A stretch of 64,000 nucleotides of DNA, taken from the NCBI RefSeq assembly GCF_030409875.1, contig NZ_JAUFQR010000003.1:124001-188000 (forward strand), written 5' to 3'. Source of the stretch: Chryseobacterium tructae. Lineage in GTDB: Bacteria; Bacteroidota; Bacteroidia; Flavobacteriales; Weeksellaceae. A program made the translations under genes and the position numbers. This document shows positions 25,117-50,675 of this stretch, one piece after another; the stretch's first letter is position 1; every line of letters begins with the position of its first letter. The notes beneath the pieces were generated by a model. The model was not told where the DNA came from. It was given only the letters and a program-made list of their open reading frames with translations, and did not search any database.

Positions 25117-25188
25117 GGCCCGTTCGTCTATCGGTTAGGACCTCAGATTTTCATTCTGGTAAGAGGGGTTCGATTCCCCTACGGGCTA
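25117..25188 (+). tRNA. tRNA-Glu (anticodon TTC), copy 2
   Basis: A 72-nt cloverleaf with acceptor GGCCCGT / ACGGGCT, D arm GTCT / GGAC, anticodon arm with loop TTTTCAT (anticodon TTC) and T arm AGGGG-TTCGATT-CCCCT. It is identical to the copies at 25271 and 25408. Confidence 0.95.
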
Positions 25189-25197
25189 CTTAATTTT

Positions 25198-25232
25198 TAA
25201 AAGCCACTGAAATTTTTACAGTGGTTTTTAAA
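25198..25232 (+). terminator. Terminator between tRNA-Glu copies 2 and 3
   Basis: A stem AAAAGCCACTG / CAGTGGTTTTT (one G-U pair) around an AT-rich loop, with a T-rich 3' side. It may end the rpsT-tRNA transcript, though the next tRNA lies only 40 bases on. Confidence 0.6.
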
Positions 25233-25270
25233 AACAAAGTTGCAAAGCTAATACTTAAATACATCTAACC

Positions 25271-25342
25271 GGCCCGTTCGTCTATCGGTTAGGACCTCAG
25301 ATTTTCATTCTGGTAAGAGGGGTTCGATTCCCCTACGGGCTA
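25271..25342 (+). tRNA. tRNA-Glu (anticodon TTC), copy 3
   Basis: Identical 72-nt sequence to the copies at 25117 and 25408, with the same anticodon TTC. A separate promoter is not obvious. Confidence 0.95.
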
Positions 25343-25407
25343 CAAACTAAGAGTTGACACTTATAAAAACAAATACTAACACATTGCTTAGGTAATGGAA
25401 GATAGAG

Positions 25408-25479
25408 GGCCCGTTCGTCTATCGGTTAGGACCTCAGATTTTCATTCTGGTAAGAGGGGTTCGATTCCCCTACGGGCTA
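25408..25479 (+). tRNA. tRNA-Glu (anticodon TTC), copy 4
   Basis: Identical 72-nt sequence to the two preceding copies. It is directly followed by a strong terminator. Confidence 0.95.
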
Positions 25480-40680: not shown

Positions 40681-40797
40681 GGATCATGATGACGCTAATG
40701 GATATAAGAAAAGCAACGACAAAGCACAGCTGTCACTGCACAGAATCATTGTTGTCCTAAGCTTTATTCCACGAAAGCGTCAAACGTTTATTATTTC

Positions 40798-40966
40798 TGG
40801 CAGGTCTTCTGACTTACTCCATTTTTGAAATCCTTCCCATTCCTAAAAACAGTGGATGTATTCTTCAAAAACTTTGGTGCGGAGCTTACAGCAGCGGGTC
40901 TGTTCCGGATTTTCACCGGATTCCCTTTTAAGAGCTTATTATGGCTCACCAAATTCCGGCAAAGAT
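40798..40966 (-). promoter_or_regulatory. Cobalamin (B12) riboswitch
   Basis: On the reverse strand the leader shows the conserved B12 riboswitch core: GAATCCGGTGAAAATCCGGA followed by ACAGACCCGCTGCTGT, and a 3' element AGTCAGAAGACCTGCC, which is the classic B12 box. The aptamer begins near GCCGGAATTTGGTG and ends about 115 bases before btuB. Binding of cobalamin should reduce expression of the uptake operon. The expression platform lies in 40681-40797, but I cannot tell termination from translation control by eye. Confidence 0.92.
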
Positions 40967-41025
40967 ATAAAATTCCCCCCAGATACGATGGTATGCAGAA
41001 TAAAATGATTATCAATCAGTAAACA

Positions 41026-48959: not shown

Positions 48960-49184
48960 TGTTTTCTGTTGTATTTATGATGAATGTCATTGATGGTTTT
49001 TCCTATTTTGTTGGAATACATAAAGCCACAGAGAGCTTTTAAGATTACGTCTTTAACGTACGAAGACTTTATCTGCTATAAACATGAATGCTGGATATTA
49101 ATGGCCACGAATGCACGAATAAATTTATTTGGCTTACAACCTATGTGTCTATGTGGTTTAAATTTTTTCTAACCACATAGATTT
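48960..49184. repeat. Intergenic repeat pieces at the IS110 3' end
   Basis: No gene is seen. It contains 'aagccacagagagcttttaag', the piece GCCACGAATGCACGAATA at 49104-49121, and an inverted repeat CTATGTGGTT / AACCACATAG near 49151-49180. The first piece recurs inverted at 50479-50496. Confidence 0.55.
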
Positions 49185-50233
49185 CTATGTTAATAAGCAA
49201 GTATTATAAGTGTTTTTTATTGATAAAAATTCTTCTTTTGGAAAAAATGGCTGTTTTCGTTTGATTACGGCCATTATTCGATGTACTAATTTGTTTCTTA
49301 TAGCATTAAGAACACTCATTTTATTTTTACCCTCTTCTACTTTTCTCAGAAAATAGGTCTTTAATTCCTTGTCTGCTCGTATACTTGCCATGGCAGATAA
49401 ATGAAGCAGCTTTTTCAGTTTTTGATTCGCCATTTTCGATACACGTTCTTTTTTTACGATGGTTCCTGATTGATTTTTGAACGGAACAACTCCTGCATAA
49501 CAAGCAAGGTGTTTAGCATTATCAAACGATTTGAAGTTATTGGTAATGATGATCAAATTAAGAGCACATTGAGTTCCGATTCCAGGAATGGAAATCAAAA
49601 GTTCTTTGTTTTTCTTAATCTCATCTTGGATTTCCATAAGTTCTGAAAGCTGATTTTCTATTGTTTTTATAGATGTGGTAAGAGTTTTCAGCGTTTTTGA
49701 AAAGGCTTGGGTCAATAGCTTAAACACATACACATCGTGACTTTTGGCTTCCCTTAATTGATTTTCCAAAGCCGTTTTTTGCAATAGTAAAGTATCACGG
49801 GATTTAGCCAGCACGTTCATTCGTTGTATAACTTCCTCTGATTCCTCATAAGGCATTATTTTATCGTGATAGCGAACAGCGTATTCTGCAATTCTTCTGG
49901 CATCTTTTTCGATCATCTTTTTCCTCTTAAATCACTGGCTGCTTTTTTTGATTTTTAACAGGATGTTCCACCCAAAAGCAGATACTCTGATTTTTGAACA
50001 AAAACTTCTCTAATGGTCGGTTATAAATTCCAGTATTTTTCGCAGCAAATCAAAAGGTCTTCTTTGGTTATTTTTCAGAAGCTTTAAAAATACCTTTCAA
50101 AAAAATGAAGATATTCCTTTCTCTGTGTTGGGAATGATCTGCTCACATTGGATCTTATACTCAGAATCCATTATAGCACAATCTAATTTTTGATTTGGAA
50201 ATATCAATGCCGATAACGTACTTTTTGTCTCAT
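49185..50233 (-). pseudogene. IS110-family transposase, N-terminal half disrupted
   Basis: Bridge-RNA-guided recombinase of the IS110 family. The C-terminal half (49916-49185) is open over 243 codons and has the Transposase_20 signature LISIPGIGTQCALNLIII, CYAGVVPFKNQSGT and KLLHLSAMASIRADKELKTYF. The N-terminal DEDD domain is readable upstream from ATG 50233: KYVIGIDISKSKLDCAIMD, LICCENTGIYNRPLEKFL, FWVEHPVK and DLRGKDDRKDARRIAEY. The frame shifts repeatedly at A or T runs of five or more: I count at least eight length changes in about 330 bases, and no other damage. The catalytic Asp (IDIS) and ENTG residues remain. The gene is inactive as written, but this could be sequencing error in a multicopy element. 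Confidence 0.85.
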
Positions 50234-50254
50234 AACTTTTTTTGAGGTTATCAT

Positions 50255-50400
50255 TCACATTGAGAATCGTGTCTAAGCCCTTGATAATAGGTCTCGAACC
50301 TAAATTTCTATAATGACCTTATTCTCAAAGAAACAGGGTTCATAATCTATGTATAGGCCTCGAATCCTTGGACACATAATGGTTCACCCTGTTTCTTGTG
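50255..50400 (-). ncRNA. Candidate IS110 bridge RNA
   Basis: The region just upstream of the transposase start on its strand can fold into two hairpins. The first has a perfect 12-bp stem (50328-50339 / 50386-50397; AAGAAACAGGGT / ACCCTGTTTCTT) with a 46-base loop. The second has an outer stem GAGAAT / ATTCTC (50262-50267 / 50321-50326) and an inner hairpin AGGT-CTCGA-ACCT at 50289-50301. Both loops contain CTCGAA on the forward strand (GCCTCGAATCC and GTCTCGAACCT). IS110 elements are known to encode a bridge RNA with two loops here, one pairing with target and one with donor DNA. The assignment is by position and fold only. Confidence 0.6.
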
Positions 50401-50675
50401 AATGCTTTTATTTTGTAAACTTAATTTCTTTTTACAAACTAAAGGGTACATAGAAAATATTCTAAAGTATAATCTTTCTATTCGTGCATTCGTGGCAAAA
50501 TAATTAATGACAGATCGCACAGATGATTGTGGATAAAAATCTGCGTAATCAGCAAAATCTGCGAGAGTTCTTATCTCTTTACAACAATCTGTTACCTATA
50601 AAATTAATAAAACTGTATCTGTTATCATTCTCATATTATAACGAACTTTGATTACAAGGCTTCAGAATCTATATC

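Follow-up and report, generated by a model that had tools for sequence, protein, structure and literature searches.

A predicted bridge RNA of an IS110-group insertion sequence in Chryseobacterium tructae, carried by two differently targeted sister groups

Results

An IS110-type element within a host inverted repeat

The window analysed here, a 64,000-nt stretch of the Chryseobacterium tructae genome (positions 124,001 to 188,000 of contig NZ_JAUFQR010000003.1), carries a whole IS110-type element of 1265 bp at 49180..50444 of the minus strand, with boundaries common to the copies in the genome, running from CTTTAG at the left end to AAATC, the core C counted in, at the right end. Features below lie on the minus strand and are given in window coordinates unless stated otherwise. 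The transposase gene (Transposase_20, DEDD_Tnp_IS110) occupies 49185..50233, and its frame is broken in the window copy. A 243-aa fragment from the window matched PF02371 (Transposase_20) with an E value of 3.6e-23 and PF01548 (DEDD_Tnp_IS110) with an E value of 7.5e-5, the latter at 23.0 bits, under the cut-off of 29, and covering only the domain end; the gene thus contains the DEDD RuvC-like and Transposase_20 domains of the IS110 family. L030, a congeneric relative with an open frame and 77% identity, aligned to the PDB recombinases IS621 (E 5.3e-24) and ISCro4 (E 2.5e-25), with the IS621 alignment spanning residues 7-328 of 346.

An undisturbed full-length transposase frame was found in none of the nine copies in the genome, the longest being that of L010 with 343 open codons and without the usual start, and open frames were found in the relatives G050, G143, G134 and G118. 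The nine copies (49185-50233 and L009-L017) differ in homopolymer lengths within the transposase gene, and their first ~200 alignment columns are almost free of homopolymer differences (one case, L015), a pattern that would fit either assembly error in repeats or recent decay.

At the insertion site, the left target (positions 1-9, CTATGTACC) lies at 50445..50453 with the core CC at 50445-50446, and the right target TATGT at 49175..49179. The element entered a host inverted repeat whose remaining part (CTATGTGG ... CCACATAGACACATAG), recognized from its sequence and from related genomic sites, lies at 49141..49180. This repeat carries CTATGTG half-sites. With at most one mismatch, CTATGTNCCTATGTGG occurs at 26 places in the genome, 12 of which form six close inverted pairs, and the reversed control at none; the target is therefore a partly palindromic repeat that is scattered over the genome. 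Searching the same genome with a narrow pattern for CTTTGCG in tandem gave only 4 places. The landing sites of the window's element appear to be dispersed repeats, some of them inverted pairs, built of tandem CTATGTG half-sites. Another copy, L010, sits in one unit of a tandem duplication, the other unit of which is uninterrupted in nearly the same context and contains the unoccupied target CTATGTACC/TATGTGG (the slash marks the junction here and below). Constant ends in nine copies, insertion beside a short core and the unoccupied target beside L010 all accord with the IS110 family.

A predicted structured RNA precedes the transposase gene

The original prediction placed a candidate bridge RNA at 50255..50400, as two stacked hairpins directly upstream of the transposase and on its strand, and both hairpins were present as described: a perfect 12-bp stem AAGAAACAGGGT/ACCCTGTTTCTT (50386-50397 with 50328-50339) closing a 46-nt loop (50340-50385), and an outer stem GAGAAT/ATTCTC (50321-50326 with 50262-50267) around an inner hairpin. 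The feature reaches past the predicted limits, and its body (50252..50404) is closed by CATTCAC (50398-50404) paired with GTGAATG (50252-50258). The first hairpin corresponds to the predicted target-binding loop (50328..50397) and the second to the predicted donor-binding loop (50262..50326), followed by the usual transposase start codon at 50231-50233 on the same strand, 18 nt past the last paired base. A possible 5′ stem-loop, TTTGTAAA...TTTACAAA (50412..50438), was seen in the fold of a 211-nt piece.

On the minus strand, the 146 nt of 50255-50400 folded at −41 kcal/mol against a shuffle mean of −29.1 (z −3.2, 0 of 200 shuffles), and the plus-strand fold of the same interval was weaker (z −2.0, 6 of 200 shuffles). 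The 211-nt piece (50236-50446), which includes the closing stem and the 5′ hairpin, gave a z of −4.6 (0 of 200 shuffles). When the piece between the −7 box described below and the closing stem was folded for 10 sequence types, 3 of the 10 were at or below 0.05 with mononucleotide shuffles; the row for the window copy included host flank and gave no fair test for that copy. No family in Rfam 15 matched the structure at the gathering score, and a search of 49150-50500 at a relaxed threshold returned three chance-level matches, all outside the structure.

In an alignment of 10 sequences, 97.1% of 350 cells were paired, a share that is favoured because the structure was derived from the same 10 sequences; the stronger point is that 11 of the 35 pairs changed on both sides, compared with a shuffled mean of 3.3 (0 of 500 shuffles) and 0-2 pairs in slid controls. 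The covariation with other IS110 leaders on which the original prediction had been made to depend was therefore found. RNAalifold additionally proposed a pairing between the left and right target guides (columns 30-35 with 56-61), which was left out of the model because the target half-sites are repeats and the pairing follows from them.

A covariance model (R1) built from the 10 distinct sequences matched in 16 of 173 genomes of the genus (E<=0.001) and in 6 of 395 genomes across the phylum (E<=1e-4), the own genome included in both counts. Among 67 relative loci found by protein search in named genomes, R1 matched 36 (E<=0.01), all upstream of the gene on the transposase strand, and the matches reached down to 32% transposase identity (L073), so that the covariance search proposed with the original prediction recovered the RNA upstream of distant IS110 transposases. 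Of the 31 loci lacking a match at this threshold, 23 have hardly any sequence on the upstream side of the gene fragment that was matched; the other eight have upstream sequence and no match at E<=0.01, and five of these have a weak one (0.02-0.09). Protein searches at E<=1e-70 in 320 family and 395 order genomes returned no relatives outside the genus, and those outside the genus were found by a scan of genome contigs.

Two of the loci have unusual ends. L034 (G167) is an internally deleted element with 895 bp between its ends, in which both ends and apparently the whole bridge RNA are preserved, and it resembles a non-autonomous derivative. L044 has a second CTTTAG left-end-like start 79 bp upstream of its left end, after CTCTATGATAC, perhaps a nested or old insertion.

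The first loop matches the target flanks

The right target guide region (50344..50352) consists of the guide ACATA (50348-50352), a core-pairing GA (50346-50347) and a handshake TT (50344-50345), and the left target guide is TTATGTGTC (50371..50379, register 2). The roles of GA and TT, the latter of which could pair with the donor AA, are assigned by analogy with IS621. For comparison across relatives, element ends were set by fixed motifs (CTTTAG left, ATAG[AT]AATC right) independently of the guides.

In the target loop, the 5-nt stretch preceding the core-pairing GAT was set against the first 5 nt beyond the right end. Agreement reached 134 of 155 bases in 31 of 48 loci, 17 of which were perfect, compared with a permuted mean of 61.6 (sd 7.6; 0 of 10000). 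When each distinct guide was represented by a single locus, 65 of 75 bases agreed in 15 loci (permuted mean 27.5, 0 of 10000), and a flank shifted by 1, 2 and 3 nt gave 51, 43 and 25. Nine guide types had at least one perfect flank, namely TATGT, TTTGC, GAAAT, GAAGT, GAACT, GATTT, AAGAT, CCTAA and GGGGG. Poor fits were given by L033 and L058 (2 of 5 each), and L058 is one base out of alignment in A4.

For the left guide, four fixed registers were compared in 33 of the 48 loci. Register 1, which ends one base before the inner stem, was best with 171 of 297 against 106.6 permuted (0 of 5000); register 0 gave 98 against 71.0 (0 of 5000), register 2 gave 94 against 75.3 (28 of 5000) and register 3 gave 89 against 88.7, registers 2 and 3 alone thus giving little or nothing over all loci. 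When 30 distinct left guides were each taken at the best of the four registers, in real and permuted data alike and with the core excluded, 154 of 210 agreed against 95.9 (0 of 10000). The window's left guide fits 2 of 9 positions at the overall best register and 6 of 9 exactly at register 2, one base further from the inner stem, and that of L030 fits only at register 0; individual loci therefore differ in register, and 0-2 all occur. The first loop is in this way complementary to both strands of the target.

The second loop matches the element ends

The left donor guide ATAGAAATT (50303..50311) matches the left donor ATAGAAATC at the right end of the element (49180..49188), and most elements have these same two sequences. 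An element's own left donor guide, eight bases followed by C, was found exactly at its right end in 38 of 48 loci, and guide variants changed with the right ends in 9 of 9 cases (ATGGAAAT 5/5, ATAGTAAT 2/2, TTAGAAAT 2/2). No exact match was found at the right end in the other 10 loci, of which 3 have no sequence there and 7 fail, all three ATAATAAT loci being among the 7. The donor loop is thus complementary to the element's right end, and the comparison of loops with flanks and ends suggested in the original prediction assigned one loop to the target flanks and the other to the element ends.

The right donor guide region, TATTATCAAGG plus a handshake GC, lies at 50277..50289 in a pairing layout derived from the sequence. 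Within it, AAGG (50279-50282) can pair with the core C and the CTT of the left end (CCTT); both sides hardly vary, and this pairing is therefore a reading off the sequence. The donor-loop bases after AAGG are Watson-Crick complements of the target at position 8 in 24 of 33 loci and at position 7 in as many, compared with 15.3 and 11.7 after permutation (0 of 10000), and position 6 gave no signal (15 of 33 against 14.2 permuted). The handshake bases of the target loop are invariant. At positions 8 and 7, this predicted pairing is of the handshake kind described for IS621 in PMC11208158.

The original prediction had also noted CTCGAA in both loops and had read it as a shared core. The word is present in both, at 50359-50364 and 50293-50298 of the plus strand, and its role as a recombination core was rejected: on the RNA it reads UUCGAG and belongs to the apical hairpins of the two loops rather than to the guides, the first TTCGAG (50359..50364) in the apical part of the target-binding loop and the second (50293..50298) in that of the donor-binding loop. 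Of the 10 sequence types in the alignment, the window's own has it at these places and the other nine do not, so that among the types compared these apical words are peculiar to the group of the window copy (group A below).

Two sister groups in one genome sort by their own guides

The genome contains nine full copies in two sister groups, five in group A, which includes the window copy, and four in group B. The group A copies lie at different places and share an identical 201-nt leader, the group B copies are 88-89% identical to the query, and all nine have the same outer ends (right ...ACTTGCTTATTAACATAGAAATC, left CTTTAGTTTGTA). Group A has CTATGTNCC as its left flank and TATGTGG as its right flank; in group B the left flank is CTTAGCGTC, TTTTGCGCC or CTTTGCGTC and the right flank TTTGCG, TTAGCG or TTTGTG. 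The target loop correspondingly reads TTATGTGTC ... ACATA in group A and GTTTGCGCC ... GCAAA in group B, placing a TATGTG guide at CTATGTG sites and a TTTGCG guide at CTTTGCG-like sites.

We scored the fit within this genome at 14 positions, placing the left guide at register 2. With G-U pairs allowed, A sites match the A guide at 13 or 14 of 14 positions and B sites match the B guide at 10 to 12; under this scoring 8 of the 9 insertions agree better with the guide of their own group than with that of the sister group, with L016 tied, and by exact matches all nine do, L016 just by 11 to 10. If the ends of the two groups are interchangeable, this sorting of copies by their own guides would imply a cis preference of the bridge RNA. 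Trans action of a bridge RNA works in laboratory assays. We offer as a tentative and somewhat doubtful idea that, provided the ends are interchangeable, a bridge RNA works chiefly on its own encoding circle. In the same reading, the lineage was retargeted naturally between sites made of direct half-sites, whose two guides can pair with each other and might keep the loop closed before it encounters a target.

The junction core and a promoter-like sequence in the circle

The left junction reads NC/CTTTAG, with CC in all five group A copies and TC in three and CC in one of group B, and the right junction reads AAATC/T in the nine own copies. Together with the empty site CC/T, these junctions fit an exchange beside a shared C, with TC as the probable donor core and NC as the probable target core. 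A CT core as in IS621 was considered and rejected: it would give CTATGTGC-CT-TTAG, and L010-L012 show CTATGTGC-CC-TTTAG, leaving one C unexplained. The CT core is described as highly conserved in IS621 and related orthologues (PMC11208158), and with a core of NC the element is therefore placed outside the IS621-orthologue subgroup and still within the family.

Joining the ends in a circle would bring together two elements of a proposed promoter, a −7 box TAGTTTG at the left end (50435..50441), one base shorter than TANNTTTG, and a −33 element TTG at the right end (49198..49200), which in the circle would lie 21 nt from the −7 box. Of the 30 elements for which both ends are present, 25 have a right-end TTG that would lie 20 or 21 bases before a left-end TAG(N)TTTG or TAGACTTG, a count that overstates independence because the sequences are related; shuffled right ends gave this spacing in 2.0 elements (maximum 8), and the left box of the remaining 5 does not fit the −7 motif. 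The published Bacteroidota promoter consists of TTTG and TANNTTTG, and in F. johnsoniae G is nearly absent from the inner −7 positions and the −33 motif is weak (PMC6847099). The TAGATTTG of other groups fits TANNTTTG, and the box of the window's group is the one that falls a base short. The circle junction thus likely assembles a Bacteroidota-type promoter-like sequence, a reading held to this strength because G is rare inside the −7 motif, the −33 motif is weak and the window's box is one base short.

Discussion

Taking the covariation and the matches of guides to flanks and ends together, the structure is almost certainly the bridge RNA (seekRNA) of an IS110-group insertion sequence, with one target-binding and one donor-binding loop as originally predicted. 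In the mechanism that we propose, the joined ends of the excised circle would form a promoter that transcribes the RNA, the recombinase would bind the RNA, and the two loops would hold target and circle. Strand exchange next to the shared C would then yield LT-NC/CTTTAG ... AAATC/RT, after which the bases beside each guide would pair with the partner DNA in the handshake.

A strongly structured leader directly upstream of a start codon could also suggest a cis-regulatory element, an attenuator or a set of translation-blocking hairpins that limits transposase expression and has no guide function. Such a leader does not predict loop bases that change together with host flanks and element ends, and as a replacement for the guide role it is very improbable, although regulation by the leader and guiding are compatible with each other. 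The hairpins might also be features of the DNA, serving as transposase binding sites, with guide matches that stem from flanks copied into the element; the window copy indeed lies inside an inverted repeat, and its target is made of repeated half-sites. We give this hardly any credence, given that five copies at different places carry one identical leader, that compensatory changes keep the RNA pairs, and that the right guide is the reverse complement of its flank and the left guide is not, as in IS621.

A different question is whether the guide RNA is real and its lineage dead in this strain, the nine copies being relics, which would be compatible with a bridge RNA and would account for the broken transposase frames throughout the genome. 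Against this stand the open frames of the four relatives named above and the identical leader of the five group A copies, which in a MAFFT alignment show 24 columns with substitutions and differ mostly in the lengths of homopolymers within the gene, a pattern that suggests recent spread or assembly error. We consider a dead lineage rather unlikely.

The bridge RNA system itself is known from IS621 and ISEc21. As described for IS621, the RNA lies in the left end upstream of the recombinase gene with the target loop preceding the donor loop (PMC11208160, PMC11208158), the left guides repeat the top strand and the right guides are antisense, the right donor guide is discontiguous, here as read off the sequence, and a promoter is rebuilt at the circle junction, here as a promoter-like sequence only (PMC11208160); targets in extragenic palindromes and handshake pairing after exchange are likewise shared (PMC11208160, PMC11208158). 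By contrast, the core of IS621 is CT with an almost invariant T (PMC11208160, PMC11208158), whereas here an invariant C follows a variable base. Also unlike the IS621 described in PMC11208160, a 7-bp stem closes both loops, the promoter-like sequence is of the Bacteroidota rather than the sigma-70 type, and the target of the window's group consists of two tandem half-sites, so that its two target guides are largely complementary to each other.

The element shares with ISEc21, its seekRNA and the redirected relative ISMch6 (PMC11187229) the IS110 type with an upstream non-coding region, a bottom-strand match 5′ of a top-strand match, and a guide and target changed naturally between relatives. 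Natural redirection was thus already reported for ISMch6 (PMC11187229); in contrast to the case described there, two redirected groups of five and four copies reside in one genome and differ in both target guides. With the IS1111 group the element has the recombinase family and the RNA principle in common (PMC11208160), and it falls outside that group by the position of its RNA, which is upstream of the gene rather than downstream; IS1111 members are described as having subterminal inverted repeats of 7-17 bp (PMC11208160).

Among the titles and abstract openings listed from the bridge RNA, seekRNA, IS110 and IS1111 literature, none reports a bridge RNA from Chryseobacterium; the published covariation set, with its thousands of elements, may already include some of this kind. 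What is new, as read from the sequences, is a Bacteroidota lineage with its own predicted core base and promoter-like junction, a tandem half-site target with largely complementary putative guides, and two apparently redirected groups that share one genome and have identical outer ends. The lineage offers a natural set of Bacteroidota bridge RNAs that is rich in guide-target pairs and follows a different core rule from IS621; the sister elements of this genome are a pair suited to the question of cis versus trans action. For annotators, a bridge RNA explains a structured leader that matches no Rfam 15 family.

Elsewhere in the window, Rfam models located a cobalamin riboswitch at 40782-40968 on the minus strand and three tRNA genes in a row, with equal scores, at 25117-25479.
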